64,000 nt of DNA from Pectobacterium wasabiae CFBP 3304 (GTDB taxonomy: Bacteria; Pseudomonadota; Gammaproteobacteria; Enterobacterales; Enterobacteriaceae). The notes beneath the pieces are model-generated. The model made no database searches, was not told where the DNA came from, and was given only the letters and a program-made list of their open reading frames with translations. Numbering within the stretch: the first letter of the stretch is position 1; every line of letters starts with the position of its first letter. Location: the NCBI RefSeq assembly GCF_001742185.1, contig NZ_CP015750.1, positions 1,922,001 to 1,986,000 of the forward strand. Reading direction: 5' to 3'. The position numbers and the translations under genes were made by a program. Below, one piece after another: positions 46,730-64,000 of the stretch.

Positions 46730-46915
46730 TTCCCTGTTCCTTACGTGGGGGGGATAACGAGGAACTGACATCGACGGGCGATCGACTGACGTAAAGCAGG
46801 TTAACTTGTCAGTCGCTAATACTGGGTAATATCACCATTCAGACAGAACGTGGGAATATGCTGGTTGCATAAAATAAAAAATTTGAAGGGTTGTTGCGAT
46901 CGCTTTAGGCTTTTT

Positions 46916-47305
46916 TTATAAAAATGCTATCTCTGAACTTCCTATTTTTTTAACTGATAGACCTGAGAATTTAATACCTATTCCGTGCTCTGTATCGCCA
47001 CGCCATCTAAATAAAAAACCAAATTCATTTTCAATGTCAGGATAAATATAAATCTTCATCAATTTAAACGATACATCCTTATTTTTGTAAATGCTATAAA
47101 CATATGAAGCTATTTTTTCTTCTGATAATTTAAAAAATGCATCTTGATTTTTTAGTATGAAATTAATGTCACTTACCATTTTTTCATCACTAGAATTTGA
47201 TTCTAGATAAATCACTGTAACCTTATTTTCATTAAAAATGTCAAAAACGATATTTGCTGAGATACCCTCATCATCTTCATAAAAATCAAAAACCTCACTG
47301 TCCAT
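46916..47305 (-). CDS. Acidic immunity-like protein (DUF6985/DUF2004-like C-terminus)
   Basis: The 129 residues start after AGAGAGG. The C-terminus FLFRWRGDTEHGIGIKFSGLSVKKIG resembles the EHGIG motif of DUF2004/DUF6985-type proteins, which are frequent in immunity arrays. The N-terminus is acidic (MDSEVFDFYEDDEG). Confidence 0.45.
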   Translation of the reverse strand: MDSEVFDFYEDDEGISANIVFDIFNENKVTVIYLESNSSDEKMVSDINFILKNQDAFFKLSEEKIASYVYSIYKNKDVSFKLMKIYIYPDIENEFGFLFRWRGDTEHGIGIKFSGLSVKKIGSSEIAFL

Positions 47306-47353
47306 TTAAACCTCTCTGTTTCTGTTTATAAATCTTAGGTAGTTTAGATCTAT

Positions 47354-47683
47354 TTATTCTTCCCTTATATTATATTCTGTGCGACTTATCCAAGATATAA
47401 CTTTGTATTTTCCAGAATAAACGCCATTACACTTATAATAAGCCATAACCTCTGAAGGATACCAACCATATCCGAATGAAAATAAAGCATCCATCTTAAC
47501 CAATTCACTTATGATGGTTATTTTTTCTTTTTCATCCACAACTGTTTTTACCATAAGCTCTTTAAAACAGGTAAAACCAAGTGATTTTAAATTTTCTTTT
47601 AGATTATCCCCAGATACTTTAATTTTCAATGTGTTGTTTGAAATGTCAATAACAACAATAGCGTTGTTTGGCATTACGTTCAT
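47354..47683 (-). CDS. Unrecognised 109-residue protein in immunity array
   Basis: The sequence contains AIVVIDISNNTLKIKVSGDNLKE, then LFSFGYGWYPSEVMAYYKCNG. Likely a small alpha/beta protein; no membrane segment. The family is not recognised. GAAGAAAAA precedes the ATG. Confidence 0.45.
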   Translation of the reverse strand: MNVMPNNAIVVIDISNNTLKIKVSGDNLKENLKSLGFTCFKELMVKTVVDEKEKITIISELVKMDALFSFGYGWYPSEVMAYYKCNGVYSGKYKVISWISRTEYNIREE

Positions 47684-47739
47684 AATATATTTTTCTTCAA
47701 GAAGGAGTGTTTATATAGTAAGAGATTAAAATAATCCAC

Positions 47740-48069
47740 TTATGAAGAATCGCATTCAATTATTACCTTACAATAAAATCCCTTCATTTTTTCATTGGCG
47801 GTGATTAATTCATAAATAATCTTGTCATCAATAACATTGTTTATATAACAGGTTAGGTACGAATATTGAATGAAATTGACAAATGAAAAAATCATGTTGT
47901 TATAAGATTTTCTATCGCCTTCTCCCTTCAATAAAACATTATATCTATCTTCAATGATGTTTATTTCACAGGCAGAGATAGTGTCTTGTGAAAGAAAAAA
48001 GTCTCTTATTTCAAAATAAATTCCTGAATCAACAATCAACGTTACGTCATTTAATTTCTCATAAAACAT
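47740..48069 (-). CDS. Unrecognised 109-residue protein in immunity array
   Basis: Begins MFYEKLNDVTLIVDSGIYFE after AAGGTGAG. The protein is acidic overall with two cysteines near the C-terminus (GFYCKVIIECDSS). It starts 3 bases after the stop of a short open frame that could be a toxin tail, the usual toxin-immunity spacing. Confidence 0.45.
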   Translation of the reverse strand: MFYEKLNDVTLIVDSGIYFEIRDFFLSQDTISACEINIIEDRYNVLLKGEGDRKSYNNMIFSFVNFIQYSYLTCYINNVIDDKIIYELITANEKMKGFYCKVIIECDSS

Positions 48070-48072
48070 AAC

Positions 48073-48180
48073 TCACCTTAATTTAGGCTTATAGGTACTA
48101 CTGCTAGCACTCTTAGGATGAGAATAGACAGTGACGATTGGTTCGGCGACGGTTCTGCTGCTGGCGTAATCACACTGATT
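48073..48180 (-). pseudogene. Possible toxin C-terminal remnant
   Basis: The minus strand reads QCDYASSRTVAEPIVTVYSH followed by a Ser/Lys-rich tail (PKSASSSTYKPKLR) and stop at 48073-48075. Nothing larger remains upstream, where the frame hits a stop inside the neighbouring gene. The tail-then-immunity layout is the reason for the call. Confidence 0.3.
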
Positions 48181-48760
48181 GTTCAATGTTTATATACTCT
48201 CTGTTTTTCTTATCAAAAAACACATATAGAAATGAAACGTCATTTTTTAAATTAGAGATATCAATCTGGCCAATAAATAACAACGGACTGTTGTTATTTA
48301 TTGGCCAATCAGGAGATTGCAACCATTTTGGTTTTGTCTTTAGAAATTTAAAGGATGAGTGTATTTCATTTTTCAATAATCCCTCTAATTCCCTTCCTTG
48401 AACACCTTTGAATTTATCGACAAGATGTTTTAAATAATTGCCACTAATATTAATCCATGATGGCTTCGTTTTCAGAATAGCATCGTATATTTTTTCATGT
48501 TCCTCATTGAATTTAAAATCAACCCCTTTGATCTTAAGGAACTGTGAAAGCAAATCTTTTGCATTTATTTCACCAGATAGTGATAATAAATCAACTTCAA
48601 GAAGATAAATATATATGCTTCCAGAAGTGGTATATGGAGGTATGTTTATTTCTTCAGATAAAACTAACTCAATATCTTTATTGTAATAAATCTCATTTTT
48701 AAAATCTTTTGATGAAATATTTCCTTCAAGATAATTTTTGATGATGTCAAATTCACTCAT
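48170..48760 (-). CDS. Immunity-like protein with DUF1963-like C-terminus
   Basis: The 196-residue protein starts after AGAGGA. The N-terminus is helical (SEFDIIKNYLEGNISSKDF). The C-terminus KPKWLQSPDWPINNNSPLLF, then IGQIDISNL, resembles the FIGQ segment of DUF1963/YwqG-type proteins. A perfect 18-base inverted repeat lies inside the coding sequence (48267-48307). It is the first gene of the array. Confidence 0.5.
   Translation of the reverse strand: MSEFDIIKNYLEGNISSKDFKNEIYYNKDIELVLSEEINIPPYTTSGSIYIYLLEVDLLSLSGEINAKDLLSQFLKIKGVDFKFNEEHEKIYDAILKTKPSWINISGNYLKHLVDKFKGVQGRELEGLLKNEIHSSFKFLKTKPKWLQSPDWPINNNSPLLFIGQIDISNLKNDVSFLYVFFDKKNREYINIEQSV
48267..48307. repeat. Perfect 18-base inverted repeat within coding sequence
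   Basis: TGGCCAATAAATAACAAC (48267-48284), a GGACT loop, and GTTGTTATTTATTGGCCA (48290-48307). It codes the WPINNN...FIGQ part of the overlapping gene. Outer bases can extend the stem with a bulge (CAATCT/AGATTG). Confidence 0.95.
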
Positions 48761-49342: not shown

Positions 49343-50086
49343 TCAGGCCTGATGCAGTGCTTGGCTGACCGCTTGCCGTTGTTCCAATAACGCGGTGCTG
49401 GTTCGGTCGCGGGGATAAGCCAAATTGACTGGCAGAATCGCGCTAATTCGACCGGGTCGGGGTGACATCACCACCACCCTGTCGGCCAGAAAAACGGCTT
49501 CTTCCACGTCATGCGTCACCAGCAATATTGTCAAATCCGTTTGTCGGCGAATCTCCGCCAGACGTTCCTGCAACTGCTGTTTGGTCAGTGCATCCAGCGC
49601 GCCGAAAGGTTCATCCAGCAAGAGAATTCGTGGCGTCGACACCAGCCCACGAGCGATCGCTACGCGCTGCGCCATCCCGCCTGATAGCTGATGCGGCCAT
49701 GCGTCGGCAAAGCCTTCCAGCCCCATCATCTGAAGATAGTGAGTAATACGTTGTGTAGCGTCCGCAGAGGAAAGGTTGAGGTTAAGCATGCCGAGGCGAA
49801 TATTGTCCGTCACGGTGAGCCACGGAAACAGGCGCGGCTCCTGAAACACCAGGCTGACATCGTCGGGAATTCCGCGCACAGACCGATCGCCAATCAGAAT
49901 ACGCCCACGCTCGGTGGTATCAATCCCGGCGGCCAAACGCAGCAGCGTCGATTTACCGCAGCCGCTGGCCCCGATGACTGCAACCAGTTCGCCCGTGAGC
50001 AGCGACAGATCGATGTCCTGTAACACCGTCAGCGGTGCGCCGTTGACGGTAAAATACTTGGTAATATGCTGAAAATGCAGGGACAT
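49343..50086 (-). CDS. ABC transporter ATPase, SsuB/TauB type
   Basis: The ATG at 50086 follows GGAGG and gives 247 residues beginning MSLHFQHITKYFTVNG. Walker A is GASGCGKSTLLRL, the Q-loop is VFQEPRLFPWLTV, the signature is LSGGMAQRVAIARGL, Walker B is ILLLDEPFGALDAL, and the H-loop is LLVTHDVEEA. The family energises import of nitrate, taurine and aliphatic sulfonates. It follows the permease gene and ends the tonB-led minus-strand unit. Confidence 0.92.
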   Translation of the reverse strand: MSLHFQHITKYFTVNGAPLTVLQDIDLSLLTGELVAVIGASGCGKSTLLRLAAGIDTTERGRILIGDRSVRGIPDDVSLVFQEPRLFPWLTVTDNIRLGMLNLNLSSADATQRITHYLQMMGLEGFADAWPHQLSGGMAQRVAIARGLVSTPRILLLDEPFGALDALTKQQLQERLAEIRRQTDLTILLVTHDVEEAVFLADRVVVMSPRPGRISAILPVNLAYPRDRTSTALLEQRQAVSQALHQA

Positions 50087-50103
50087 AGAGCCTCCGTTAA
50101 CGG

Positions 50104-51714
50104 TCACGCAAAGCGCCAGCGGGTCAACCGCCGTTCAGATAAGGTCATCAAGCGGGAAAAGAGCGCGGCCACGATCGCAATCAGTACGACCCCGGCCATG
50201 ATGCGATCGGATTCAAGTAACTGCTGTGCACGGATCATCATGCCGCCCAGTCCTTCTCCCGACGGCATGAAATACTCTGCGCCAATGGCTCCGGTCCACG
50301 CATGCATTAAGGCCAGCCGTAAACCGGAAAACAGTGGTGGCAATACGCTGGGAAACACCAGCGTGCGCAGCGTCTGCGTGGAGGTAAGGCGCAGAACCTG
50401 CGCGACTTCCAACAGCGCGGGGGGAAGCTGGGCAATGCCCTGACGGGTTGCCAGCATCACGGGAAAGAACGCGGCCACGGCGATAAATACGATTTTGGCG
50501 CTCTCCCCTAAACCGAACCAGGCCGTGATCAGCGGCAGCCAAGCGAATAGTGCCACGCAGCGCAGTGCAGATAGCGCCGGATTAAACAGCCTGTCGGCGA
50601 TGCGCCAGTTGCCGAGTAATGCCCCCACCAGCGCACCGATCCCGCTCCCCAGCAGAAAGCCCTGTAACGCACGCAGCAGGCTGGCATTCAGGTCGGCCAG
50701 CAGCCCACCCTGAACCAGCCCTGACCACAGCGCACCAATCACATCACTCGGCGCAGGAAGAAAAGCCACATTCACCCACTCGCGTGTGCCGCTAACCTGC
50801 CACAGCGCAACCAGAACCAATGGCGCAAGCCAAGGCGTCAGCGACAAACTCGGTAGCGCAGAGCTCAGGCTATCGCGCCCCAGTACCGGTGCAGGCCAGT
50901 GAATCCAACGACGCTCAAGCTTCAGCAGCACGCGTTCCCCGGCAAACCCTAGTATCCCGATGATCAAAATGCAGACAAACACCAGATCCAACATGAACAG
51001 TTGGCGGCTTTGTACCAGCAGGTAGCCCAGCCCTTCGCTGGATGCCAGCAACTCAACTGCAATCAGCGCCACCCATCCGGTGGAAAACGCCAGCCGAACC
51101 CCCGTCATGACATACGGCAGCATTGCGGGCAGGATCAGGTAACGCAGAAAGGCGATAGGCGGTAAACGCAGGCTACGCGCCATTTCATGCAACTTTTGTG
51201 GCGTCTGTTGAATACCGGCGCAGGTGTAAAGCGTCACCGGCACCGTCACTGATTTCACCAATACCACCAGTTTCAGCGCTTCACCAATACCGAGTGACAG
51301 CATCAAAAGCGGTATCCAGGCTAACGTTGGAATCTGTGCGATGACGGTGAAGAGTGGCATAAACAGCGCATTCAGGCGTCGATTCAGGCCGAACAGACTA
51401 CCAAGCACCAGACCCAGCGCGATGCCGCCGCTAAAACCAATCGCAAGCCGCATCAGACTAATTGGCAACTGGTGAATCAGTTCTTCGGGAACAAAATCCC
51501 GCGCACTGTCGATGACCGCCAGCGGCGAAGGCAATATCTGCTCAGACATCCACCCGTGCCGACTGGCAAGCCACCATCCGGCTAATACCAGCACTGGCAC
51601 GAGCAGTGACGTGATCAACGACGTGGCCAGCGCAGAATATCCCGCCGATAGCGCACCCGTGGACAGCGAAGCATCAGAAGCGGAACGTATTCGCAGTGTG
51701 TATTTGGGCATCAT
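50104..51714 (-). CDS. ABC transporter permease, two fused SsuC-like domains
   Basis: This 536-residue protein holds two complete permease units in one chain, where SsuC or TauC has about 250-275 residues and works as a dimer. Copy 1 runs from about residue 30 to 265 and copy 2 from about 285 to 530; each has about six membrane spans. The EAA-type loops are in MARSLRLPPIAFLRYLILPAMLP and VAQVLRLTSTQTLRTLVFPSVLP. PTLAWIPLLMLSLGIGEALK and CVALFAWLPLITAWFGLGESAK are corresponding segments. It lies between exbD and the ATPase gene. Confidence 0.9.
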   Translation of the reverse strand: MMPKYTLRIRSASDASLSTGALSAGYSALATSLITSLLVPVLVLAGWWLASRHGWMSEQILPSPLAVIDSARDFVPEELIHQLPISLMRLAIGFSGGIALGLVLGSLFGLNRRLNALFMPLFTVIAQIPTLAWIPLLMLSLGIGEALKLVVLVKSVTVPVTLYTCAGIQQTPQKLHEMARSLRLPPIAFLRYLILPAMLPYVMTGVRLAFSTGWVALIAVELLASSEGLGYLLVQSRQLFMLDLVFVCILIIGILGFAGERVLLKLERRWIHWPAPVLGRDSLSSALPSLSLTPWLAPLVLVALWQVSGTREWVNVAFLPAPSDVIGALWSGLVQGGLLADLNASLLRALQGFLLGSGIGALVGALLGNWRIADRLFNPALSALRCVALFAWLPLITAWFGLGESAKIVFIAVAAFFPVMLATRQGIAQLPPALLEVAQVLRLTSTQTLRTLVFPSVLPPLFSGLRLALMHAWTGAIGAEYFMPSGEGLGGMMIRAQQLLESDRIMAGVVLIAIVAALFSRLMTLSERRLTRWRFA

Positions 51715-51735
51715 GAGCGTCAGTATCCGGCTAGG

Positions 51736-52137
51736 TTATTTCTGCGTCAGCAGAGATAAACGCGTAATCCCCGCCTGCTCAACATCGGCTAGCAGCGCCG
51801 CTACCGTGCCGTAGTTGGCCTCTTTGTCCGCTTGTACCTGCACCACCAAATCGGTGTTACCCGCTTTCGCCTGCTGCAAGCGTGGCACCAGTTGCTCGCG
51901 TGCCAGGTTTTCTTTATTGATGAAGACGCGCTGCTCGGCATCAATACTAATAACAATCGGATCGGCGCGATCGACCGGAGCCACCGCTGCTGTTTTCGGT
52001 AGCTGAATAGGAATGGCATTGGTCAGCATCGGCGCAGTAACAATGAACACCACCAGCAATACCAGCATGACATCCACGAGCGGTGTGATATTCATTTCAC
52101 TCATGACATCGTCATCATTACGCGAGGTAAACGCCAT
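51736..52137 (-). CDS. exbD: ExbD-family energy transducer
   Basis: The 133 residues have a short cytoplasmic N-terminus, one membrane span with the essential aspartate (ITPLVDVMLVLLVVFIVTAPM) and a periplasmic domain ending in a predicted strand (GITRLSLLTQK). Partner of ExbB in the proton-driven motor that powers TonB. It follows exbB by 1 base. Confidence 0.93.
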   Translation of the reverse strand: MAFTSRNDDDVMSEMNITPLVDVMLVLLVVFIVTAPMLTNAIPIQLPKTAAVAPVDRADPIVISIDAEQRVFINKENLAREQLVPRLQQAKAGNTDLVVQVQADKEANYGTVAALLADVEQAGITRLSLLTQK

Positions 52138-52138
52138 C

Positions 52139-52855
52139 TCACACTACCTCTCTCAGATTCTTTACCGAGAAAGCCGCAGAGGATGGCTCCTCGCTAGCCT
52201 GAAATGTACTGACGTGAAAATCGTTCGCCTGCATCACGCTGTAGACGTCATGGGCGAAGTCATCCATATCTGCGACGGCCAGCTTGAGACGACGTAAAAA
52301 GTAGTTGTAGATCAGCACCGCAGGCACCGCGACCGCAATCCCGATCCCGGTGGCGATCAGCGCGTTGCCAATCGGCCCCGCCACAGTGTCGAGACTGGCA
52401 GAACCAGAAAGCCCGATCTCCTGCAACGCCGCCATAATGCCCCAAACGGTGCCAAACAGGCCGATAAACGGCGACGTACTGCCGATACTCGCCAACACCG
52501 CCAGCCCGCTTTCCAGCGAGCGGCGTTCGCGCTGAATCTGCTGTTGCAGTGCGCGTTCGACCCGATCGGGAAGATGAATATTCAAAGCAAGCTGGCCGCT
52601 AATCCGCTCCGGCGCTTTAACGGCGGCCAGTGCCAAATTAGCCAGTGAGCCGGGCTGTTTCGCGCTAGTTTCTGGCGTTTGGCTCACGTCATCCTGCTGC
52701 CAGAAAGCTGCACGGAAACGCCGATCGCGTCGCTGCGACAGCCGGTATTGAATGAACTTCAGCAACCCCAGTCCCCAGGTGACGAGAGAAAACAGCAGCA
52801 GTAACAGAACCACTGCGCCTTCAGCAGAAAAGAGTTCAATGTGTCCGAGCGTCAT
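52139..52855 (-). CDS. exbB: ExbB-family proton channel
   Basis: The ATG at 52855 gives 238 residues beginning MTLGHIELFSAEGAVVLLLL; a TTG 6 bases upstream is possible. Three membrane spans are seen. The conserved segments are GSTSPFIGLFGTVWGIMAAL and NALIATGIGIAVAVPAVLIYNYF. Forms the pentameric motor component with ExbD. It lies between tonB and exbD. Confidence 0.93.
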   Translation of the reverse strand: MTLGHIELFSAEGAVVLLLLLFSLVTWGLGLLKFIQYRLSQRRDRRFRAAFWQQDDVSQTPETSAKQPGSLANLALAAVKAPERISGQLALNIHLPDRVERALQQQIQRERRSLESGLAVLASIGSTSPFIGLFGTVWGIMAALQEIGLSGSASLDTVAGPIGNALIATGIGIAVAVPAVLIYNYFLRRLKLAVADMDDFAHDVYSVMQANDFHVSTFQASEEPSSAAFSVKNLREVV

Positions 52856-52865
52856 AACCAATACC

Positions 52866-53732
52866 TCATGAGTTCAGCGAAAAATCGACAGGAACCACCA
52901 CCCAACCGCTAACTGGCTGATTGCCGCGCCGCGCTGGAACGAAAGACCAACGCACCACGGTGTCTCTGGCAGCCTCGTCCAGCGACGGATAGCCGCTTGA
53001 TTGATGAATCCGAATGGTTTGTACCTTGCCGTCAGCACGGACCTGCACATTTAGCAGCACCGTGCCTTCATAGCCGCGGCTAATCGCCACGTCGGGATAA
53101 GATGGCGAAGGGTTATGCAGGTAGTCGGCATTGGCCAGCGGCGGCGTTAGCGGCGCGTCGACGGGTTGTACCGCCGCCTTTTGCGCTACTGGCGCAGGCG
53201 TTATCGGTGCCACTGCCGATGCAGTTTCCGTCTGGGGCTGCGGCGTCGGTTTAGGCGCGGGCGTGCTCTTTTTCACCGGCGTCTTTTTCAGTACAGGTTC
53301 AGGTTTTTTCTCCGGCATTTTTTTCTCCGGGGCAGGGGGCAGCAATGCACTTTCATCCACCAGCGGCTCGGTTATCGTTGGCTCTTCCTGCGGTTGTGGC
53401 GTCGGCGTCTCAGGTTCGGCAACCGGAACGACCTCTTGCTGCACGGGCTCTGCAACCATCGAAACCAGTTCAACGCTGACAGGCTGCGGCCGAGCGGGCA
53501 CCGTAACCGGCGGTGTCGCCGCGCCGTTGAACAACGCCAGCACCGCCGCATGCAATAGCAACGTCGCCATCACCGCCAGCCAGCGCTCCGGCCGGGATGA
53601 AACCGCTGTATTTAGCTGTGATAAGCGCTGCTGCACTACGCCGTTCACTTGCTTAGCGTTGGCATGCGGCGTTGGCTCCGGTGAATAGGACTGAGGTATC
53701 GGCGCGGCTCCCGCATAGAGTAATTCCGTCAT
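52866..53732 (-). CDS. tonB: TonB-family protein
   Basis: The 288-residue protein has an N-terminal cytoplasmic stretch of about 50 residues, longer than in classic TonB. It is followed by one span (RWLAVMATLLLHAAVLALF, containing the conserved His), a Pro/Lys-rich linker (PEKKMPEKKPEPVLKK) and the C-terminal domain PSYPDVAISRGYEGTVLLNV with SSGYPSLDEAARDTVVRWSF. It is the first gene of the minus-strand unit and faces the receptor genes; probably dedicated to the receptor at 55267-57537. Confidence 0.92.
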   Translation of the reverse strand: MTELLYAGAAPIPQSYSPEPTPHANAKQVNGVVQQRLSQLNTAVSSRPERWLAVMATLLLHAAVLALFNGAATPPVTVPARPQPVSVELVSMVAEPVQQEVVPVAEPETPTPQPQEEPTITEPLVDESALLPPAPEKKMPEKKPEPVLKKTPVKKSTPAPKPTPQPQTETASAVAPITPAPVAQKAAVQPVDAPLTPPLANADYLHNPSPSYPDVAISRGYEGTVLLNVQVRADGKVQTIRIHQSSGYPSLDEAARDTVVRWSFVPARRGNQPVSGWVVVPVDFSLNS

Positions 53733-53792
53733 GATGGGTTGCTCCTGACAATATATCTTTATCGCCCTATTTTACGTTGCAGGCGTCAATGA

Positions 53793-53810
53793 CTATTTCA
53801 CCTGAAATAG
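53793..53810. promoter_or_regulatory. Perfect palindrome, candidate operator 1
   Basis: CTATTTCA-CC-TGAAATAG, 8-base arms with a 2-base centre, about 61 bases before the tonB start. Confidence 0.5.
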
Positions 53811-53813
53811 CGA

Positions 53814-53836
53814 TTGGGATAATCAATTTTTCCCAA
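53814..53836. promoter_or_regulatory. Palindrome with 11-base spacer, candidate LysR-type operator
   Basis: TTGGGA-N11-TCCCAA. LysR-type regulators often bind interrupted dyads of the T-N11-A kind; a LysR gene lies at the end of this locus. It is 3 bases from the other palindrome. Confidence 0.5.
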
Positions 53837-54173
53837 CCATTTAATAAAGTCAACGTATGTATCTGCATATCGATATTCATTCCATTCTTTATTTAATAAG
53901 GCGATGGCGTTAATAATCGATACCCAGACTAAAGGAGAAAATTGCTGTCAGGCTAATGCATAGTTGGAATAGTTTTTTTTCGTTCGCTGCATAGCGGTGA
54001 AATAGACGATGGATACTGATTTAGCTATTTATTAAGAATAATAATGCTTTTTTTGTATTAGTCAGTTTATTGCCAAGCCTTTAAATGTGGTTCTGCAACG
54101 ATATGACGCCGTTCGAAACAGGCGCAATAACACAATTTCTATTCATCGATTTCATTACTGGCGGGTAAAAATA

Positions 54174-55181
54174 ATGACGACATCAGGACGAAAATGGTTA
54201 GTGACCAGCATATTGGCAATGGGTATGGCCTGGTCAGGTATCGCGTCAGCGATCACTGAAATTCGTATTGCCGCGCCAGACATTGGCGCGGGCACAAAAC
54301 CCAGCGGCGGTGGCCTGCTCGACGTCATCCACAGTCAGAAACTGCTGGAGCGCGAGTTTAGCAAAGATGGGATCAACGTGCGTTGGACGTTCATCAAAGG
54401 TGCCGGCCCCGTCATCAACGAGGCGTTTGGTAACCATCAGGTCGATGTGGCCTATCTGGGTGATTTGGCCAGCATTATCGGCCGTTCACGCGGTCTGGAT
54501 ACCCGGGTGATCGCCGTGGCGTCACGCGGTATCAATCACTATCTGGCCGTGGCAAAAGGCTCTGGTATCGAGAAAATTGCCGACCTAAAAGGCAAACGCA
54601 TCGGGATCTTTCGTGGAACGGCAGGTGAACTTTCCTTTGTCAGCGCGCTTGATTCACAAGGCCTGAAACCGTCTGACGTTAAGCTGATCAATCTCGATTT
54701 CGCAGCAGCCAGCGCGGCGTTAGCTGCCGGGCAAATTGATGCCACCTGGGGCGGTAGCAATACGCTTTCATTGCGGGATAAAGGGCTGGCCGATATTCCA
54801 CTCTCCAGTCGCGATTTGAACGGGGCAGGCCAACTCAGCGGCTTCCTGCTGGTGGATGAGAAATTTGCCAAAGGCAACGAGGATATTCTACGACGCTTAG
54901 TCAAAGTTCAGCGAGAAGCAGCAAATTGGGCTAGCGATAATAAGAATAAAGATGAATTTATTCGCTTATTAGCGACTCAATCAGGTTACCCGGAAAATAT
55001 ATTACGCGTCGAATGGGATACATTACCGCCATTAACTGAGCGCCTTTCACCCGAATTGGATGCTGCTTTCGTGGCAAAATTAAAACGCGCGGTCACATTG
55101 GCCGACGAATCGCGTCTTATTCGGCAGCCGTTTGATGTCGATAAATGGCTGGATGATTCTTATCTAAAAGCAACGCAGTAA
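54174..55181 (+). CDS. ABC transporter substrate-binding protein, sulfonate/nitrate type
   Basis: The ATG at 54174 begins a signal peptide (WLVTSILAMGMAWSGIASA) and a 335-residue protein of the SsuA/TauA/NrtA fold: IRIAAPDIGAGTKPSGGGLLD, INVRWTFIKGAGPVINEAFG, VDVAYLGDLASIIGR and LKGKRIGIFRGTAGELSFVSAL. It should deliver ligand to the ABC importer encoded across the divergent promoter. The family binds aliphatic sulfonates, sulfate esters or related anions; the actual ligand is not evident. The upstream extension to 54087 is unsupported. Confidence 0.85.
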   Translation: MTTSGRKWLVTSILAMGMAWSGIASAITEIRIAAPDIGAGTKPSGGGLLDVIHSQKLLEREFSKDGINVRWTFIKGAGPVINEAFGNHQVDVAYLGDLASIIGRSRGLDTRVIAVASRGINHYLAVAKGSGIEKIADLKGKRIGIFRGTAGELSFVSALDSQGLKPSDVKLINLDFAAASAALAAGQIDATWGGSNTLSLRDKGLADIPLSSRDLNGAGQLSGFLLVDEKFAKGNEDILRRLVKVQREAANWASDNKNKDEFIRLLATQSGYPENILRVEWDTLPPLTERLSPELDAAFVAKLKRAVTLADESRLIRQPFDVDKWLDDSYLKATQ

Positions 55182-55266
55182 TTTATTTCCCCTAAAAATT
55201 ATAACCCACGTATTGCCGTGACATTCACGGCAATCGGCAGCATATTGACGACATTCGGAAGAAGCC

Positions 55267-57537
55267 ATGTATTTAAAAAAGCACCAACAGTATTTAAAAA
55301 AACATCAGCACAAAATAACGTCAGGCATTTTAATGAGCTGCGTTTTAACGCTCCCCGTCACGACGCAAGCAGCCGATCCGCAAACCGCAACGGATAATGT
55401 TCCTCGAACCGAGGCGACAACCGCTGCCCCCGTCCAACTAAAACGCGTGAAAGTGAACGCCCAGCGCGCCCCCATTCAGCCACCGACCACGCTGGCATCG
55501 GTAATCGACGGCAAAACGCTCGAAGAAGAGCGGATATATCGCTTTGAGGAGCTGTCACAGCTAGTGACGGGGCTGGATGTCGATACCGTCGATGTGATGG
55601 ACACTACCGTGACCATTCGTGGGATTGGCGATGGTGGCGAGAGCGGCACCAACATCGGTATGTCGGGCAGCGTGGGCCTGTTTGTTGATGGTGTCTATTT
55701 GTCCCGCCCCGGCGTTATCTCTAACGATTTGCTGGATATTGACAGCACCCGCGTATTGAAAGGTCCGCAGGGCGCAGCCTATGGCTTTAATACCACTGGC
55801 GGTGCGATTGATATTCGCACCCGCAAACCGACGTTCACCCCCGAATACTCACTGGAGCAATCGTTCGGACAACGCGGCTATCTGCAATCCAAACTGATGG
55901 CATCCGGGCCGCTCAGCGACCACTGGGCGGGGCGCATCAACCTGTCACGAACCGAACGCGGCGGAAACGTCACGAATATCGAAAACGGCCATAAGCTCGG
56001 TGGCAGCACCAATAACGGCGTGCGCGGCCAGTTACTGTATCAGCCCAATGACAGCTTTAACCTCAGAATCACTGGCGACTATAGCGATTCCACCCAGCGC
56101 CCCGTTTCGGTTCTGGTGAGTGCAACCGACGCCTTTCGCACTCGCGCAGAACAAACCGGCCTCAAGGTCGTCGGTGGTCGTCAGGTCGCTATGGATGACG
56201 AGAACGTCATTCGTGTCGCACAAGGTGGCGGCTCGGTAGAAGCCAACTGGAGACTGAAGAGTGGATTTAGCCTGAATTCTCTCTCCTCGTTGCGCTATTT
56301 CCGTGTCTTGCCCAGTACGGCGGATAACTGGAACATTCCGCTCTATCACGACAGCGGTGCCGATGTACGCGATCGCGTCTGGTCGCAAAGCTTTTGGCTG
56401 GATTCGCCCAAAGGCAATAAGGTCGATTACTCACTCGGCGTCGATTACTGGGGAGAGAATCTCGATACCGAGGCAAACAGTCGCTACTACAACGACAATC
56501 GCGTGCGAACGTGGGTAGGGAATGGCTATCAGGGCATTAACGTTCAGCGCTTTGGTACGTTAGATGACACCGTTTATTCCGTCTATGGTCGTGGAACCTG
56601 GCACGCTGCCGATAAGCTGGACGTCATTGTCGGCCTGCGCCACACCTACGAGAAAAAAGAGGGAACGTTTGTCCGCAGGAACCGTGCGACCTTCGACTCT
56701 GGTCCACTCTCGCAAACCAACCACCTGCCTTCGGGCTCCATTAGCCTGAACTGGTTTGCCGCACCCAACGCCACCCCTTACCTCACGCTGGGCTACGGGG
56801 AAAAGTCCGGCGGCCTGAATGTGTCATCCGGGGCTGCAAGGCAACTGGGGATCGACTCGCTGTACGTCGATCCAGAGAAAACCCGCTCGGCGGAGTTGGG
56901 GATCAAAACACACTGGCTACAGCGCAAAGTGGAATGGAATACTGCGCTGTTCTGGAGTGTCGTCGAAGATTTCCAGAATAACGCCTATGACGAAGAAACG
57001 GATACCAGCTACCTGATTAATGCCGGGAAATTCCGCTCACGCGGCGGGGAATCTCAGTTGACGCTGCGCCCGCTTGATGGCCTGAGCATCAGTCTGGCCG
57101 GTACGCTGCTGGATGCCAGCTATCTGAATTTCCCTAACGCCCGCTGCCCGGCAGAAATCTCCGCCGTCTCGTGCGATATGTCAGGAAAACGCGTCTTCAA
57201 ATCCCCCACGCTGAGTTACAACACGCGTGTGCGTTATCAGTGGGATACGCCAAACAATCTGCAAGCCTCGGTTTCCGGGCAATGGTCATGGCGGAGTTGG
57301 GCCTATGGCACGCTCGATGATTCCGAGAGCAATCGTATTCCGGCCTATGGTGTCCTGAACCTGTCTAGCGGGCTGAGCGGCAAGCAGGGCGACAACCGTT
57401 GGAACGTGTCGCTGTGGGTGAAAAACGCGCTGGATAAGAACTACTACCGCTCCGTCAGAGGCTCCAGCGCCACAACGGGCGTGATTGGCGAACCGCGCAT
57501 GGTCGGAATATCGGTCGGTTACGACTTCAAGGGGTAA
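55267..57537 (+). CDS. TonB-dependent outer-membrane receptor
   Basis: The 756-residue protein has a signal peptide (GILMSCVLTLPVTTQAAD), a short linker with a possible TonB box near LKRVKVNAQR, then the plug domain (VTIRGIGDGGESGTN, GLFVDGVYLSRPG, TRVLKGPQGAAYGFNTTGGAIDI) and a beta-barrel ending SVGYDFKG. There is no N-terminal signalling domain, so regulation through an anti-sigma factor is unlikely. The first 12 residues contain a duplicated YLKKHQ. It lies after the binding-protein gene and before the lyase; the lyase reading frame begins 4 bases after its stop. Confidence 0.93.
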   Translation: MYLKKHQQYLKKHQHKITSGILMSCVLTLPVTTQAADPQTATDNVPRTEATTAAPVQLKRVKVNAQRAPIQPPTTLASVIDGKTLEEERIYRFEELSQLVTGLDVDTVDVMDTTVTIRGIGDGGESGTNIGMSGSVGLFVDGVYLSRPGVISNDLLDIDSTRVLKGPQGAAYGFNTTGGAIDIRTRKPTFTPEYSLEQSFGQRGYLQSKLMASGPLSDHWAGRINLSRTERGGNVTNIENGHKLGGSTNNGVRGQLLYQPNDSFNLRITGDYSDSTQRPVSVLVSATDAFRTRAEQTGLKVVGGRQVAMDDENVIRVAQGGGSVEANWRLKSGFSLNSLSSLRYFRVLPSTADNWNIPLYHDSGADVRDRVWSQSFWLDSPKGNKVDYSLGVDYWGENLDTEANSRYYNDNRVRTWVGNGYQGINVQRFGTLDDTVYSVYGRGTWHAADKLDVIVGLRHTYEKKEGTFVRRNRATFDSGPLSQTNHLPSGSISLNWFAAPNATPYLTLGYGEKSGGLNVSSGAARQLGIDSLYVDPEKTRSAELGIKTHWLQRKVEWNTALFWSVVEDFQNNAYDEETDTSYLINAGKFRSRGGESQLTLRPLDGLSISLAGTLLDASYLNFPNARCPAEISAVSCDMSGKRVFKSPTLSYNTRVRYQWDTPNNLQASVSGQWSWRSWAYGTLDDSESNRIPAYGVLNLSSGLSGKQGDNRWNVSLWVKNALDKNYYRSVRGSSATTGVIGEPRMVGISVGYDFKG

Positions 57538-57541
57538 TGTC

Positions 57542-60313
57542 ATGAAGCAGATGACGTATTCACGCCGACGCTTCCTGCGTGACAGTACACTGCTGGCGCT
57601 GTCGGCACCGTTCTGGACCTCTGCCGCTGCGCCTCTGGCGGAGGCTTCCAACCGCACTGACGAGGCCGCACCGCAGGCCAGCCTGCGCTGGTTGGACGGG
57701 CAGATCCCCCGCTCGTTTACGGGCGTCACCTGGGGCGTTCCCTGGCCGCAGGGGGCGGTGCGCAGCGATAGCGATTTCCAGTTACACGGCACTCAGCAGC
57801 AGGTTTACGACCTACAAAGCTGGCCGCTCGCCCGTTGGCCAGACGGTTCGATTAAATGGTCGGCACATGCCCTGGGCGGCGATACCGCGCCAGAAAACGA
57901 CCTGACGCTGCGGCCGACCCTTGCTAAGGATGTGCCGACGGGCTCAGAGATGGTTAGCGAGCATGAGCGCGGCTGGACAATCGATACTGGTTCTATTCGT
58001 TGCGTGATTCCACGCTCAGGCGCTCGCCTGATCGAAGAAATTTGGCGAGATGGTCGGCTAGCGTTAACCAACGGCAGGCTGGTGCTGCGCATGCAGCGCG
58101 GCGCCGAAACGGACAGTACGCTGACGCAGGACGCGTATCAGGGGGTGATCGACACGGTCACCGTAGAACAAAGCGGGCCGCAGCGAACGGTGATTGCGCT
58201 ACGTGGCACGCATCACGCCGAACCACAGGGGGTTACGCACATCCCCTTTATTATCCGGCTGTATAGCTATGCGAATACCGATTCGCTGCGCGTGGTACAC
58301 ACCCTCCTCTATGACAACGATGACGATCAGCTTAGCCTGAAAGGACTTGGGCTGGCGTTCGACGTTCCGCTACAGGGAGAGCTACACGATCGCCATGTAC
58401 GCTTTGCCTCGGATCAGGGGGGGCTCTTTCGTGAAGCGGTACGCGGCCTGAGTGGATTACGTCGCGATCCCGGTGCAGCCGTTATCGCAGCGCAGCTAGC
58501 CGGGCAGGGCACGCCACCGATCGCAGATTTTTCACCGGAGGTCGGCAAACGGCTGGATTACATCCCCGCGTTTGGCAGTTACCGCCTGACCCAGCACCAT
58601 CCCGACGGTTTCCAGATCCACAAACGCACAGCGGCCGGACAGGGTTGGCTGCTGTCCGCCACGGGTGAACGGGCGGCAGGTGTCGGCTATCTCGGCACGC
58701 CAACAGGCGGCGTGGCGTTCGGCCTGCGCAATTTCTGGCAGAGTTACCCCGCCTGTCTGGAAATCGACAAGGCTCACACCGACGTGGCAACCGTCACGCT
58801 CTGGCTATGGTCACCGTTGGCGGAACCGATGGATATGCGTTTTTATCATGATGGCTTGGGTCAGGATACCCATGACAAACAGCGTGAAGGGCTGGCAATC
58901 ACCTATGAGGATTACGAACCGGGCTTCGGCTCCGCAGTTGGCGTAGCGCGCACCAGCGAACTGTTTATCGATGTGCTGCCCGCGACGCCCGACGCGGAAA
59001 ATCTGGTGAATCGGGCACGGCGTATGCAGCAACCACCGCTGCTGGTGGCGAACTCACAGGATTTGTACCGCGCACAGGCGTTTGGATCGATGTGGTCTCC
59101 TGCCTCTGCCGCAACACCTGCCCGTACCAGTCTAGAGAAGCAGTTGGGGGCGTATTTCGACGCCTACCAGCAGGAAGTTGAACAGCGAAAATGGTACGGC
59201 TTCTGGGATTTCGGCGATGTCATGCACACCTATGACAGCGACCGTCACGTCTGGCGCTACGATGTGGGCGGCTATGCGTGGGATAACTCAGAACTGAGCA
59301 CCGATCTGTGGCTCTGGTATTACTTCCTGCACAGCGGACGCGCCGACGTGTTTCGTATGGCGGAAGCCATGACGCGCCACACTGGTGAAGTTGACGTGCA
59401 TCATCTGGGGCGCTTTAGTCCGCTAGGCTCCCGGCACAATGTCCGCCACTGGGGCGACAGCGCCAAACAGTTGCGGATTTCTACCGTCGCCAACCGCCGT
59501 TTTCTCTACTACCTCACTGCCGATGAACGCATCGGTGAACTGATGGATGAACAGGTTGAGGCGCTGCGCACGCTAAGCGCGGTGCTGCCTGGCCGCAAAA
59601 TCGGCCAGACGCATCCCGACAGCCCCAATCATATCAGTCTGGGTTTCGGCACCGACTGGGGGGCGGTCGCAGCCGCCTGGCTCACCGCCTGGGAACGCCA
59701 CGGCAATCCGGCAATGCGCGAACGCTTGCTCAACAGCATGCAAACGCTGGCGGCCCAGCCACACGGTTTTTTCACCGGTAGCGCCGCCATCGACCCCGAT
59801 ACCGGCAGATTCCTTCCCGCACCTGCGGATCAGGTAGAAATTTCTCATTTGAGTGCAGTCTTTGGTCTGACAGAAATCTGTAGCGAGTTGGTTGAGGTGC
59901 TGCCCGATCCGGCCTTTACGCGCGCGTGGCTCGACTACTGTCGGCTGTATAACGATCCGGTCGCGTTAAGCGCACGGGTTGGCAAGACGGTGAAAAAGCT
60001 CAATCTGGCTCAAGGGCATGCCCGGCTGACCGCTTTTGCCGCACGGCAACTGAATGACCGCGCGTTGGCGCAGCGCGCGTGGGCAGAATTTACCGCTGGC
60101 AGCGGCGGCATTGCCAACCCGACGCTCACGCAGCGACGCCTTACGCCCCCTGACGTGCTCTACTCCATCAACGAACCGGTGATCAATTCCACCATTGATA
60201 AACAGTCCGGCAGTACCGCGACAACCAATCTGGCGACCAACGCCGTCGCCCAATGGGGATTAACCGCCATCGCCCTGCTGGCCTTGCTGGATGACATTCC
60301 CGCTTCTTCTTAA
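57542..60313 (+). CDS. Tat-exported exo-rhamnogalacturonan lyase-like protein (PL26 type)
   Basis: The ATG at 57542 starts a twin-arginine signal: SRRRFLRDSTLLALSAPFWT, with cleavage probable after AAA. The 923-residue protein begins the mature part with LRWLDGQIPRSFTGVTWGVP, WPLARWPDGSIKWSAHALGG, typical of PcRGLX/YesW-related exo-rhamnogalacturonan lyases. The central region has HVWRYDVGGYAWDNSELSTD and the C-terminal region is an all-helical barrel (HPDSPNHISLGFGTDWGAVAAAWLTA). Tat export means it folds in the cytoplasm and acts in periplasm or outside. It starts 4 bases after the receptor gene. The substrate is inferred from family. Confidence 0.8.
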   Translation: MKQMTYSRRRFLRDSTLLALSAPFWTSAAAPLAEASNRTDEAAPQASLRWLDGQIPRSFTGVTWGVPWPQGAVRSDSDFQLHGTQQQVYDLQSWPLARWPDGSIKWSAHALGGDTAPENDLTLRPTLAKDVPTGSEMVSEHERGWTIDTGSIRCVIPRSGARLIEEIWRDGRLALTNGRLVLRMQRGAETDSTLTQDAYQGVIDTVTVEQSGPQRTVIALRGTHHAEPQGVTHIPFIIRLYSYANTDSLRVVHTLLYDNDDDQLSLKGLGLAFDVPLQGELHDRHVRFASDQGGLFREAVRGLSGLRRDPGAAVIAAQLAGQGTPPIADFSPEVGKRLDYIPAFGSYRLTQHHPDGFQIHKRTAAGQGWLLSATGERAAGVGYLGTPTGGVAFGLRNFWQSYPACLEIDKAHTDVATVTLWLWSPLAEPMDMRFYHDGLGQDTHDKQREGLAITYEDYEPGFGSAVGVARTSELFIDVLPATPDAENLVNRARRMQQPPLLVANSQDLYRAQAFGSMWSPASAATPARTSLEKQLGAYFDAYQQEVEQRKWYGFWDFGDVMHTYDSDRHVWRYDVGGYAWDNSELSTDLWLWYYFLHSGRADVFRMAEAMTRHTGEVDVHHLGRFSPLGSRHNVRHWGDSAKQLRISTVANRRFLYYLTADERIGELMDEQVEALRTLSAVLPGRKIGQTHPDSPNHISLGFGTDWGAVAAAWLTAWERHGNPAMRERLLNSMQTLAAQPHGFFTGSAAIDPDTGRFLPAPADQVEISHLSAVFGLTEICSELVEVLPDPAFTRAWLDYCRLYNDPVALSARVGKTVKKLNLAQGHARLTAFAARQLNDRALAQRAWAEFTAGSGGIANPTLTQRRLTPPDVLYSINEPVINSTIDKQSGSTATTNLATNAVAQWGLTAIALLALLDDIPASS

Positions 60314-60348
60314 TGCTGCCACTCGGCGGCACGTTACAGGACATCATC

Positions 60349-61041
60349 ATGATTGACCCTAGCTGTACTGAAAACACGCTCTTCCTGTCGCCGCAGACAA
60401 GCGACACACATGACATTATTGCTTCGCTCCACCGTTCAGCGCTTATCTGGTCCACCGATTCAGAGGGGCAGCCGCTACGCTGGCAGGTAGAGCAGGAAGA
60501 TCCCGATCGCACGGCGATCCAGAGTACGTCCGAACGTCTAACGTTGGAGAGCGCTGCCGGGTTGACGATCTGGCTGGATGCGCCGCTCTCAGGCACCTAT
60601 CGCATCGCCTTCACGCGGGAGGTTCTGGTCGCGGATCGTCCTTACGACCGCGTGTCTGACCTTAACCAATTTTGGGCCGCGCGCGACCTGCATAATCCGA
60701 AGCTGTTTACCCGGCACGGCAAACTCAACGAATACGACAGCTTGAACCTGTACTATGTCGGCATAGGCGGCAATTGGAACAGTACTACGCGTTTTCGTTA
60801 CTACGACGGTCACGGCGAGCGCCTGCTACTTGGCGAATACACGGATGCCGCGCATTTACTGCGTCCTAATCATCGCTATCGCATCGTGATTGACGTGGAT
60901 CGGCGAGAAACGCGTCTCTGGGTCGATGATGTGCTCTATTTCCGCGCCAGCTACCCGAACACGCCCGCTCCGGGCTATTTCGGCTTTAGGACGGTATTTT
61001 CACGTCAAGAAATCAGCGAGTTCAGCATCACACCGCTGTAA
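60349..61041 (+). CDS. DUF6250-like protein
   Basis: The ATG at 60349 (after AGGA) gives 230 residues; an ATG at 60313 overlapping the lyase stop lacks a Shine-Dalgarno. The protein has a concanavalin-like jelly roll pattern: FTREVLVADRPYDRVSDLNQ, NEYDSLNLYYVGIGGNWNST, HRYRIVIDVDRRETRLWVDD and APGYFGFRTVFSRQEISEF. No signal peptide is seen. Similar DUF6250 proteins occur beside rhamnogalacturonan lyases; it may bind sugar or cleave the product. Its last 14 bases overlap the end of the LysR gene. Confidence 0.65.
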   Translation: MIDPSCTENTLFLSPQTSDTHDIIASLHRSALIWSTDSEGQPLRWQVEQEDPDRTAIQSTSERLTLESAAGLTIWLDAPLSGTYRIAFTREVLVADRPYDRVSDLNQFWAARDLHNPKLFTRHGKLNEYDSLNLYYVGIGGNWNSTTRFRYYDGHGERLLLGEYTDAAHLLRPNHRYRIVIDVDRRETRLWVDDVLYFRASYPNTPAPGYFGFRTVFSRQEISEFSITPL

Positions 61042-61957
61042 GCGCCGCTGGCGTACCATGCAGGTCGCTATCGACCTGCACGAAAGCGTCGATCAGTTTA
61101 CGCGCCAGCAGAGACAGACGGGCGTCCGCCAAATAAATGATGCCGTAGTGGGTATAAAATTCATCGGTATTGTCGTCTAAGCCTGCAATCTTCAACATAT
61201 GAATGCCGTGCCGATCGGGCTCATTGAAATGATTGGTCGTCCCGATAGCATCTGAATGGCGTACCACGTCCAGCAGACTGTAGCCATTTTCACACTCAAT
61301 ATTGGTGCGGATATCCAGCTTACCGCTCAGTTGCACCAGCGCACGGTGCAGGTTGGGTGGACGAATCGTTGCCGCCAGCGGGTAGGAAAAGAATTGCTCG
61401 ACGGTAATCGCTTCCTGCGCCGCCAACGGGTGCCCGCTGCGGCAGCAAAATCCCCAACGATGCTGGCTCAGCGGCTGTACCCGATAGCGGGTATCGAATT
61501 CAAAATTACGCATATCTGCCACAATGAAATCCAGTTCTTCGGCCATGAGTCGATGGCCCAGCGCCTGCCAGTTATCAACGCGAAAGACCATCCGCACTTT
61601 AGGGTACAGCCGGGAGAACGCCCCAATCACCTGTGGCATCAGCCAGGCGGCGGGTGCTGGGCCGCAGCCAAAATTTACTTCGCCCGCTTCTTTCTCATTA
61701 AATTGCTGAATATCGTTAAATAGATCGTGCGTCTGATTAATCAGGCGGCGCGCATGTTCCAGCACCACCAACCCTTTCGGTGTGGGTTCCAACTGGTTCA
61801 TGCGATCGATCAGACGGGTGCCGATGGTTTGTTCCAGCGATTGGATGCTGCGGCTAAAGGCAGATTGGGACAGTTTCATCGCCTGTGCCGCCGACGTAAA
61901 ATTGCGATGCTCAATCAGGGCAATAAAGTGACGCAGTTGGCGAAGATCGATATTCAT
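61028..61957 (-). CDS. LysR-family transcriptional regulator
   Basis: The ATG at 61957 gives MNIDLRQLRHFIALIEHRNF and 309 residues, the normal LysR length; an apparent extension to 62251 is the reverse complement of a SymE-like fragment and is rejected. The winged helix is TSAAQAMKLSQSAFSRSIQSLE. The effector domain has GCGPAPAAWLMPQV. It faces the DUF6250 gene tail to tail and is the only regulator in the locus, so it is the likely controller of the importer and lyase genes. Confidence 0.9.
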   Translation of the reverse strand: MNIDLRQLRHFIALIEHRNFTSAAQAMKLSQSAFSRSIQSLEQTIGTRLIDRMNQLEPTPKGLVVLEHARRLINQTHDLFNDIQQFNEKEAGEVNFGCGPAPAAWLMPQVIGAFSRLYPKVRMVFRVDNWQALGHRLMAEELDFIVADMRNFEFDTRYRVQPLSQHRWGFCCRSGHPLAAQEAITVEQFFSYPLAATIRPPNLHRALVQLSGKLDIRTNIECENGYSLLDVVRHSDAIGTTNHFNEPDRHGIHMLKIAGLDDNTDEFYTHYGIIYLADARLSLLARKLIDAFVQVDSDLHGTPAALTAV

Positions 61958-62237: not shown

Positions 62238-62714
62238 TTAGCTTTTATCACTTTTTATCAATGCGATTCCTTTGGGATTACTCCAATCTAAACTTTCTTT
62301 TATAATCGAGAGTGCATCTGTATTATTATCAATGTTATAAAATTCATCAAATTTATCACAATCAATTAAAGTTAACGCCACCCAATAATTTATTTGGTTT
62401 AAAAAATCATTAAATAATAAATGAATTGGATTGTTAGTTGTATCCATGTGTTTGTTGATGCACCATTCAAAATCAGAAATGGCGCTCCCCTTCAAAACGT
62501 ATGCAGAATAGCTATTCAAACAGATATGCTTACCTAGTAATCTTTCATAAGATTGAATGTTCTTATCTAATTCAAATGAAATTAAATCATTCCATTTATA
62601 TAACTGAGGATCCTGAGAGTATTTTTCCTCACCCCATTCAATATAAACCTCCTTCCAGTTAAGAATATTAATATCTATATTATTTGGCAAAAAAATTGCA
62701 AATGAAACATCCAT
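62238..62714 (-). CDS. Unrecognised 158-residue protein, probable immunity
   Basis: The ATG at 62714 follows AGGTGATTTT; another at 62738 would add eight residues. Sequence features: VSFAIFLPNNIDINILNWKE, LGKHICLNSYSAYVLKGSAI, HLLFNDFLNQINYWVALTLI. No membrane span is certain. The family is not recognised. AT-rich coding and neighbours suggest an immunity protein. Confidence 0.5.
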   Translation of the reverse strand: MDVSFAIFLPNNIDINILNWKEVYIEWGEEKYSQDPQLYKWNDLISFELDKNIQSYERLLGKHICLNSYSAYVLKGSAISDFEWCINKHMDTTNNPIHLLFNDFLNQINYWVALTLIDCDKFDEFYNIDNNTDALSIIKESLDWSNPKGIALIKSDKS

Positions 62715-62738
62715 AAAATCACCTATCTGAATTTCCAT

Positions 62739-63122
62739 TAGTGGGATGAAAAATGACTGAATTCATCGCTTATTCTCTGCTGACAAACCGCTTTGCTGTC
62801 CCACAGGTAAGCTGCGGAACGGCAAAGCGCCACGATAAACCCCGGTTCAGCAACAAACGAGTACTGGCAGCGGCGTCAGTCGCTGCTATGATATGGTGCA
62901 GGCAGACAGGGACGTCACAGCATGGCGGTAGCGTGTCTGGGTGCAAACATGCGCGTCGGAAGTTGTGGGTTATAACGTTGTTTAATAGGCCGAAAGCGCA
63001 GCCAGAAAAGGCAATGATTTCAATAGCAAGGCACTAAAACTAAAAATGGCGGAGTAAACTTCTCCAGGCAATAAAAGTACTAAACAGTGATATGTTCATA
63101 TTTATAATCGGAAATATCAACT
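62739..63122. other. Degenerate interval with copy B of an island element
   Basis: A frame at 62753-63037 reads through the segment that aligns with 49049-49195. It contains GTSQHGGSVSG, a pattern seen in PAAR-type spike proteins, but no further PAAR features, so it is treated as a remnant. Confidence 0.4.
62849..62998 (+). repeat. Degenerate element, copy B
   Basis: Aligns with 49049-49195 (minus strand) over about 150 bases, including CGCTGCTATGATA, GCAGGCAGACA and GGCGGTAGCGTGTC (from 62924). Confidence 0.7.
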
Positions 63123-63599
63123 ATGAATAACGATGCAAAAATAAACTTTAACTTTGATTGTTCTCAACTTGTTTCTTTCAAATTTAGTGATGTAGATAGG
63201 AATCAACTCAAAGGATTAACGTTGATTGAAAATATGGGGTTCAAGGTGTTAATTGATCATAATATTAAAGAGGTAAAGAAAGAATATTTTAGATCTAGTG
63301 ATGATGAGTTTTTTATTGAATTTGAAGATAAAGAGTTTGTTGGTGATATTGAGGATTGGAGTGATTTCGATAATCCTCCTGAACGAATTGTAGATTTTGC
63401 AAACAATATATTGAAACTAAAGGAATTAAATGGATTGCGAAGTGTTAGTATATTCATTTCTATTTTTTCTGAATTGGGTAAAACATCCAATTGCATTATT
63501 GATATAAGTCCAGAGGAACTGATGAAAACTCTCTATTTTATGTCAAGAAGCAATTTTGATGTTTGGGTTGATAATTTAACCATGCATTTAATTGACTAG
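63123..63599 (+). CDS. Unrecognised 158-residue acidic protein, probable immunity
   Basis: The protein is strongly acidic (FIEFEDKEFVGDIEDWSDFD) with alternating strands and helices and a C-terminal SNFDVWVDNLTMHLID. The family is not recognised. It lies on the plus strand between two minus-strand immunity-like genes and tail to tail with the SUKH gene. Confidence 0.5.
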   Translation: MNNDAKINFNFDCSQLVSFKFSDVDRNQLKGLTLIENMGFKVLIDHNIKEVKKEYFRSSDDEFFIEFEDKEFVGDIEDWSDFDNPPERIVDFANNILKLKELNGLRSVSIFISIFSELGKTSNCIIDISPEELMKTLYFMSRSNFDVWVDNLTMHLID

Positions 63600-63607
63600 C
63601 CTTTATT

Positions 63608-64000
63608 TCACTTTCGCTCTGACCTCAAATTAATACAAAAATCATAAAATGATGGGGATATAATTACCACATTATTAGGATTGTCATCGCTTTCCCATCT
63701 AATATACTTAACGAAACCGTTTTTAATATCAATCCAGTAATCATTATCACCGGCATCGGCTGCAAAAGGAAAGTGAGACAAACAAAAGTCATTTATTTCA
63801 TTAGAGTATTTCCTTCTACGTTTCCAGACATCAATCAAAGATAAAATATAAGGGCTGTCATCATCAAGATGCTGGGGGATGAAATTAAATCCCTCAACTT
63901 CCATTAAGTTATGATCACCATCATGAATGTGATAAAAAACATCTCTGTAATAAAATGCCCCACCTTCAAGGTAGCCGCCGTTATTAGTCATGTAAAAATC
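63608..64000 (-). CDS. SMI1/KNR4 (SUKH)-family protein, 5' end outside the window
   Basis: The frame stays open to the window edge and reads DFYMTNNGGYLEGGAFYYRD at the start, the F-Y-x3-NGG signature of SUKH proteins, and later FCLSHFPFAADAGDNDYWID, also typical. The methionine at 63991 is inside the NGG signature, so the true start is beyond 64000. Likely immunity protein. Confidence 0.75.
   Translation of the reverse strand, partial: DFYMTNNGGYLEGGAFYYRDVFYHIHDGDHNLMEVEGFNFIPQHLDDDSPYILSLIDVWKRRRKYSNEINDFCLSHFPFAADAGDNDYWIDIKNGFVKYIRWESDDNPNNVVIISPSFYDFCINLRSERK

Follow-up and report, generated by a model that had tools for sequence, protein, structure and literature searches.

Why should a lyase of pectin-degrading type be encoded together with an importer of organosulfur type? 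This question is raised by a locus of Pectobacterium wasabiae CFBP 3304, which we analysed within a window of 64,000 nucleotides (NZ_CP015750.1, positions 1,922,001 to 1,986,000; G000:C1:1922001-1986000 in our own numbering) on a chromosome of 5.04 Mb. Positions 49343-61957 of the window are filled by ten genes, all open, for an ATP-binding cassette (ABC) importer with a periplasmic binding protein, a TonB-dependent receptor with its own TonB, ExbB and ExbD, a lyase of polysaccharide lyase family 26 (PL26) type, a lectin-like DUF6250 protein and a LysR-type regulator. The original prediction, made from the sequence, had named all these parts, and each is present and open, although the total is ten genes and not nine. 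The oddity of the pairing holds as well. The statement that every step is encoded was too strong, as the block contains no cytosolic sugar- or sulfur-processing enzyme. We propose that a chassis of the sulfate-ester (Ats/Sft) type was recruited to the pair of PL26 lyase and lectin, its most likely purpose being to reach a sulfur-bearing plant compound (sulfate ester or sulfonate); we regard this explanation as evenly poised between right and wrong.

The importer half was first placed among its relatives. The binding protein was 38-49% identical to proteins in or beside clusters with sulfatase, arylsulfotransferase or TauD genes. Likewise, the fused permease (46-51%), the ATPase (55-58%) and the LysR protein (39-53%) matched their counterparts in sulfate-ester-type clusters, and the receptor (37-38%) matched receptors of sulfate-ester clusters. 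Judged by these homologies, the importer half belongs to the Ats/Sft kind, with an SftP-like receptor and an SftR-like regulator. The earlier label ‘sulfonate/nitrate type’ was thus too strong, as the nearest relatives found lie in Ats/Sft-type sulfate-ester clusters. With the atsACBR-sftR-atsK-sftP cluster, e.g. of Pseudomonas sp. UW4 (PMC3596284), the locus shares an SftP-like receptor, an AtsR-like binding protein, an AtsB-like fused permease, an AtsC-like ATPase and a LysR protein. It differs from that cluster in having no arylsulfatase or AtsK-like dioxygenase, and in having the PL26 lyase, DUF6250, its own TonB-ExbB-ExbD and a binding protein of a separate group. No sulfatase, arylsulfotransferase or AtsK-type dioxygenase was found among the ten genes; therefore, we do not class the locus as a sulfate-ester system proper, but only as one built on that chassis.

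Importers of this kind also occur in sulfate-ester clusters that have no lyase. The genome of the window itself contains one such paralogous cluster (L117), which includes an arylsulfotransferase, and Pseudomonas paralogues of the importer sit with sulfatase and TauD genes. This second cluster was beyond the reach of the original prediction, as was the double nature of the permease. In the case of genome G564 (L118, L120; G564:C17), the transport parts are the same as in the present locus, namely receptor, TonB-ExbB-ExbD, fused ABC permease and binding protein, whereas arylsulfotransferase and TauD take the place of lyase and DUF6250 and the promoter box described below is missing. As a separate observation, two ats-type ABC importers are adjoined by an arylsulfotransferase that carries a C-terminal thioredoxin domain in the same protein (L117, 13100-14893; L140, 12736-14526).

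In the case of the enzyme, homology and the three-domain PcRGLX architecture identify a relative of the PL26 exo-rhamnogalacturonan lyases. It matched PcRGLX of P. chrysogenum (PDB 5xq3) over 854 residues (E 1e-223). PDB entry 5xqo, titled as a complex with a tetrameric substrate, differs from 5xq3 by a Tyr-to-Phe change, the sole difference noticed in the alignments, and the window lyase retains this tyrosine and its surroundings. Unlike the Penicillium enzyme, the window protein is bacterial, begins with a twin-arginine stretch (SRRRFLRD) that reads as a signal for twin-arginine translocation (Tat), and is partnered by DUF6250 and a sulfate-ester-type importer.

This partner is tied to the lyase at the gene level. 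Because DUF6250 has no signal peptide and its gene overlaps the lyase stop codon, we propose that the lyase may carry it through Tat, the two acting as a hitchhiker pair. In 13/13 Duganella/Pseudoduganella loci examined, the two are fused into one protein. N-terminal hydrophobicity of DUF6250 was at most 1.76 in 13/13 clade-B proteins vs at least 1.90 in 10/10 other stand-alone proteins, a narrow gap in which some starts are uncertain. DUF6250 showed about 17-18% identity with YesU of Bacillus subtilis (PDB 1oq1), from which it differs by being tied to PL26 through overlap or fusion. A predicted lyase-lectin model (mean pLDDT 74.7) represents the Duganella fusion and not the window proteins. 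The literature search returned no paper with the word DUF6250.

Is the block more than a chance neighbourhood? It is, because all ten genes co-occur, at 74-99% identity, in 20/20 other Pectobacterium loci examined (L009, L144-L162; tblastn). The lyase was found in 21/25 Pectobacterium genomes searched and the receptor in the same 21, and the block is all-or-none in these genomes. At L160 (L072, G413) permease and lyase are both broken, perhaps by decay or sequencing error, and at L149 LysR is covered to 66% by its best piece. Nine named Pectobacterium records match the lyase at 87-93% identity. In 19/21 Pectobacterium loci, pfkA is close to the block; the window copy and L155 are sited elsewhere. 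Among 394 genomes of the order, the C-terminal lyase domain had any match in six and a strong one in three (G000, G126, G214), the lyase locus of G214 standing without any other gene of the set. The receptor was detected in 2/149 genomes of the family, its own included, and the lyase in 4/298 Pseudomonadaceae genomes, including the one at the centre of the search. A near-identity DNA search gave no match in E. coli genomes and only two 101-base ABC matches in plasmids; when plasmids were searched with the lyase by tblastn, 10 records matched at 28-55% identity.

To follow the history of the pairing, the best 80 of 513 lyase relatives were examined; comparisons from the trees onward used a chosen set of loci and not all 80. 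The lyase tree comprised 82 of 84 loci plus the window (L033 and L047 were left out owing to internal stops in the aligned piece; L072 and L086 are partial). The Pectobacterium, Enterobacter and Pseudomonas lyases formed one clade (support 0.995), and an ats-type binding protein adjoins every lyase locus of this clade except L052 of P. typographi. In the sister clade of Duganella, Pseudoduganella and Paraburkholderia, most loci have receptor and DUF6250, and none has a match to the ats-type binding protein. Altogether, only 14 of these 80 relatives had the binding protein within the stretch examined. A function shared by both halves is supported within the one clade (Pectobacterium, one Enterobacter, Pseudomonas). 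Outside it, the observation that the original prediction had named as its refutation was made, with lyase lacking the importer and importer lacking the lyase. Therefore, the pairing appears to be a derived recruitment and not a universal partnership. In the simplest history, an older triad of receptor, lyase and lectin would have gained an ats-type importer, with its regulator and promoter, in a single recruitment. The lyase-linked binding proteins also form one group apart from the ats-linked ones (branch support 0.999; the 7-residue binding-protein piece of L009 was left out, and the receptor and binding-protein trees are unrooted).

Some neighbours of these loci are recorded here in their own right. 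An apparent extracytoplasmic function (ECF) sigma factor and/or FecR-type gene, assigned by eye, precedes the receptor at L040, L043, L055 and L067, which suggests cell-surface signalling. A similar MFS gene adjoins the binding protein in six Pseudomonas loci (L022, L023, L024, L135, L136, L137), and in five of these, not in L135, an esterase-like alpha/beta hydrolase lies beside LysR (L022 copies alone were scanned).

Regulation provides a second link to sulfate-ester clusters. A weight matrix trained on eight lyase-locus promoters found one site in the window, a 30-bp box in the divergent promoter. Lyase loci outside the training set also carry it (L025, 20.9; L052, 26.2), and so do promoters of ats-type binding proteins (L138, 20.2 and 17.3; L139, 13.6; L141, 24.2; L022, 22.9; L024, 8.4). 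All of these ats-type scores exceed those of the 1200 control windows (top 7.3), and the L139 score was reached by 1/200 shuffles. No site scoring at least 8 was found in 400 kb of control DNA, nor in 13/14 Duganella, Paraburkholderia and Uliginosibacterium loci, L047 being the exception (9.2). Lyase loci and Pseudomonas sulfate-ester operons therefore share an operator class, and the Pseudomonas ats-type clusters resemble the present locus in having a related promoter box.

The features of the locus are collected in Table 1. The minus-strand genes and the genes from binding protein to DUF6250 diverge, and the LysR gene closes the block in convergent orientation. The ATG start of the binding protein was picked by comparison with L009. 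TonB_C has two matches in the genome, the second at C1:4125531. On either flank (window 43781-48760 and 62238-64000) lie AT-rich small genes that resemble, by eye, orphan immunity or Rhs-type genes.

Table 1. Genes and promoter box of the locus (window positions)
Feature	Position	Strand	Evidence or remark
ABC ATPase, AtsC/SsuB-type	49343..50107	-	ABC_tran E 6e-32; 57% to ATPase of arylsulfotransferase cluster in the same genome
Fused double permease, AtsB-type, 536 residues	50104..51714	-	two BPD_transp_1 stretches; a single chain comprises two permeases
ExbD	51736..52137	-	PF02472 E 2e-30
ExbB	52139..52861	-	PF01618 E 3e-34
TonB	52866..53732	-	PF03544 E 9e-23
Operator-like box, divergent promoter	53953..53982	+	identical in 21/21 Pectobacterium loci
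Periplasmic binding protein, AtsR/SsuA-type	54174..55181	+	
TonB-dependent receptor, SftP-like	55267..57537	+	Plug and barrel domains
Predicted Tat-signal PL26-type exo-rhamnogalacturonan lyase relative	57542..60313	+	three PcRGLX Pfam domains, E 6e-29, 4e-142, 1e-172
DUF6250 lectin-like protein, no signal peptide	60313..61041	+	PF19763 E 1e-60; start overlaps lyase stop (TAATG)
LysR-type regulator	61028..61957	-	PF00126 and PF03466

How might these parts work together? In our proposal, an Ats/Sft-type trans-envelope uptake system would have been recruited, with regulator and operator, to the PL26 lyase and the DUF6250 lectin. Through the SftP-like receptor, powered by its own TonB-ExbB-ExbD, a uronide-rich glycan fragment or glycoconjugate would enter the periplasm. 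The lyase would leave the cytosol folded via Tat, probably with the signal-less DUF6250 bound, which would grip the glycan while the enzyme cleaves at a galacturonate residue by beta-elimination. The AtsR-type protein would then capture a small anionic product for import by the fused permease and its ATPase. LysR would control the divergent operons via the box. Homology, regulation and gene content lean towards a sulfur-containing ligand. The more specific version, in which a lyase-lectin complex co-exported by Tat unwraps a sulfur-bearing uronide conjugate and the sulfur part enters by the sulfate-ester-type importer, i.e. organosulfur scavenging, is put forward tentatively and with less than even expectation.

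The strongest rival is a route for carbon, which we hold possible but somewhat doubtful. The chassis would have been repurposed for plain rhamnogalacturonan-I fragments: the receptor would take up oligomers, PL26 and DUF6250 would free unsaturated galacturonosyl-rhamnose, the AtsR-type protein would bind its carboxylate, and cytosolic GH105 and rhamnose enzymes would finish the degradation. The Pectobacterium genome itself contains the three families PF07470 (GH88/105), PF00544 (PL1) and PF06134 (RhaA), with one GH88/105 and one RhaA match, both outside the locus. GH88/105 occurs together with RhaA in Enterobacter G781 and together with PL1 in the two Duganella genomes tested. GH105 and rhamnose enzymes are absent from the ten genes, which thus do not make up a self-contained system of rhamnogalacturonan utilisation. 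Against the carbon route, none of these three families, the only ones searched, had a match in eight Pseudomonas genomes that carry the receptor-lyase-DUF6250-LysR set, in seven cases next to the binding protein; therefore, rhamnogalacturonan as carbon is doubtful there. The same families had no match in 2/2 Paraburkholderia genomes tested. If the locus serves one and the same function in Pectobacterium and Pseudomonas, this is thus unlikely to be growth on the disaccharide of rhamnogalacturonan by the known route. Moreover, the binding protein is of organosulfur type, and its fold searches gave no sugar-binding periplasmic protein among the 50 matches listed in either search, although a missing entry there proves little. 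KdgR patterns, used with no positive control, weigh little: the longer consensus (at most three mismatches) had no match in the divergent promoter (53733-54173) and 6 in the window, one at 62023, and the shorter pattern had 39 matches in the window vs 41 expected, one at 53786.

Several points weigh against the sulfur purpose that we prefer. Since the lyase-linked binding proteins form their own group, their ligand may have changed. Three ats-type clusters, L117 (this genome), L140 (Enterobacter) and L118 (G564), showed no such box, and where it is shared it may stem from common promoter descent with the chassis and not from a common signal. The locus contains no sulfatase or desulfurising enzyme. 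Lyase loci of the sister clade lie near PL4 or a sugar-diacid regulator, and those of other, distant branches have GH105 and MFS neighbours; both point to rhamnogalacturonan as carbon. In a neighbour test for TauD, sulfatase, arylsulfotransferase, luciferase-like monooxygenase (LLM) and SfnB genes, own seed locus excluded, 2/12 lyase loci were positive (L022, L067) vs 0/20 controls (drawn from six of the Pseudomonas genomes, none from Paraburkholderia or Enterobacter), a weak difference. Moreover, sulfated rhamnogalacturonan is not known to us from any land crop.

Individual neighbourhoods of lyase loci contain sulfur-type genes that were striking at first sight but were given little weight after this neighbour test: an LLM at L025, an SfnB-type protein at L052 (below the curated cut-off), and a taurine-type ABC transporter with TauD and TonB-ExbB-ExbD genes at L067 of the sister clade. 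What we retain is that ats-type genes abut 3/8 Pseudomonas lyase loci. TauD-family dioxygenases occur in all 14 genomes checked, one of them in G000. Genes for polar amino-acid-type ABC transporters stand beside the lyase locus in 4/12 loci (L052, L061, L065, L137); reading these as cystine uptake was dropped because the families are not sulfur-specific.

The other rival, two modules side by side in which a receptor-lyase-lectin unit and an ats-type importer share a promoter and handle different compounds of the same plant tissue (e.g. a glycan and a free sulfate ester), would suit the triad without importer in Duganella and Paraburkholderia loci, the importer without triad in sulfate-ester clusters, and P. 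typographi L052, where receptor, lyase, DUF6250 and LysR are present but no binding protein adjoins them, but we consider it improbable in view of the all-or-none presence in Pectobacterium, the co-directional genes from binding protein to DUF6250 with their short gaps, and the separate group of lyase-linked binding proteins, which fits a changed, shared ligand.

Parts of the chassis have been named before. In PMC4079955, genes of D. dadantii 3937 predicted to act in host interaction include sftP (ABF-0019117), atsR (ABF-0019118), ExbB (ABF-0019122), ExbD (ABF-0019124) and astB (ABF-0019125), and the same list contains ABF-0019115 and ABF-0019116, hypothetical and adjacent to sftP in number. 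From gene order, we infer that this pair corresponds to DUF6250 and the lyase. Counterparts of several in P. carotovorum WPP14 are also listed there; the prediction was by machine learning and came without a function. In literature searches on the pairing or its parts, which mostly fell short of full text, we met no description of lyase and importer in combination.

Polysaccharide lyases are usually read as serving to obtain carbon, and Ats/Sft systems as serving to obtain sulfur; this locus joins both, with a single regulator gene and a single promoter box. The signal-less lectin partner would make a clean test case of Tat co-export for a carbohydrate-active enzyme. The carrier genus Pectobacterium comprises soft-rot bacteria of crops, and the pairing hints at an unrecognised way to feed on plant material. 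The alternatives at stake are an unknown plant sulfur source and a new pectin route. If the lyase indeed serves organosulfur scavenging, plants would contain sulfated or sulfonated uronides, a pool absent from textbooks.
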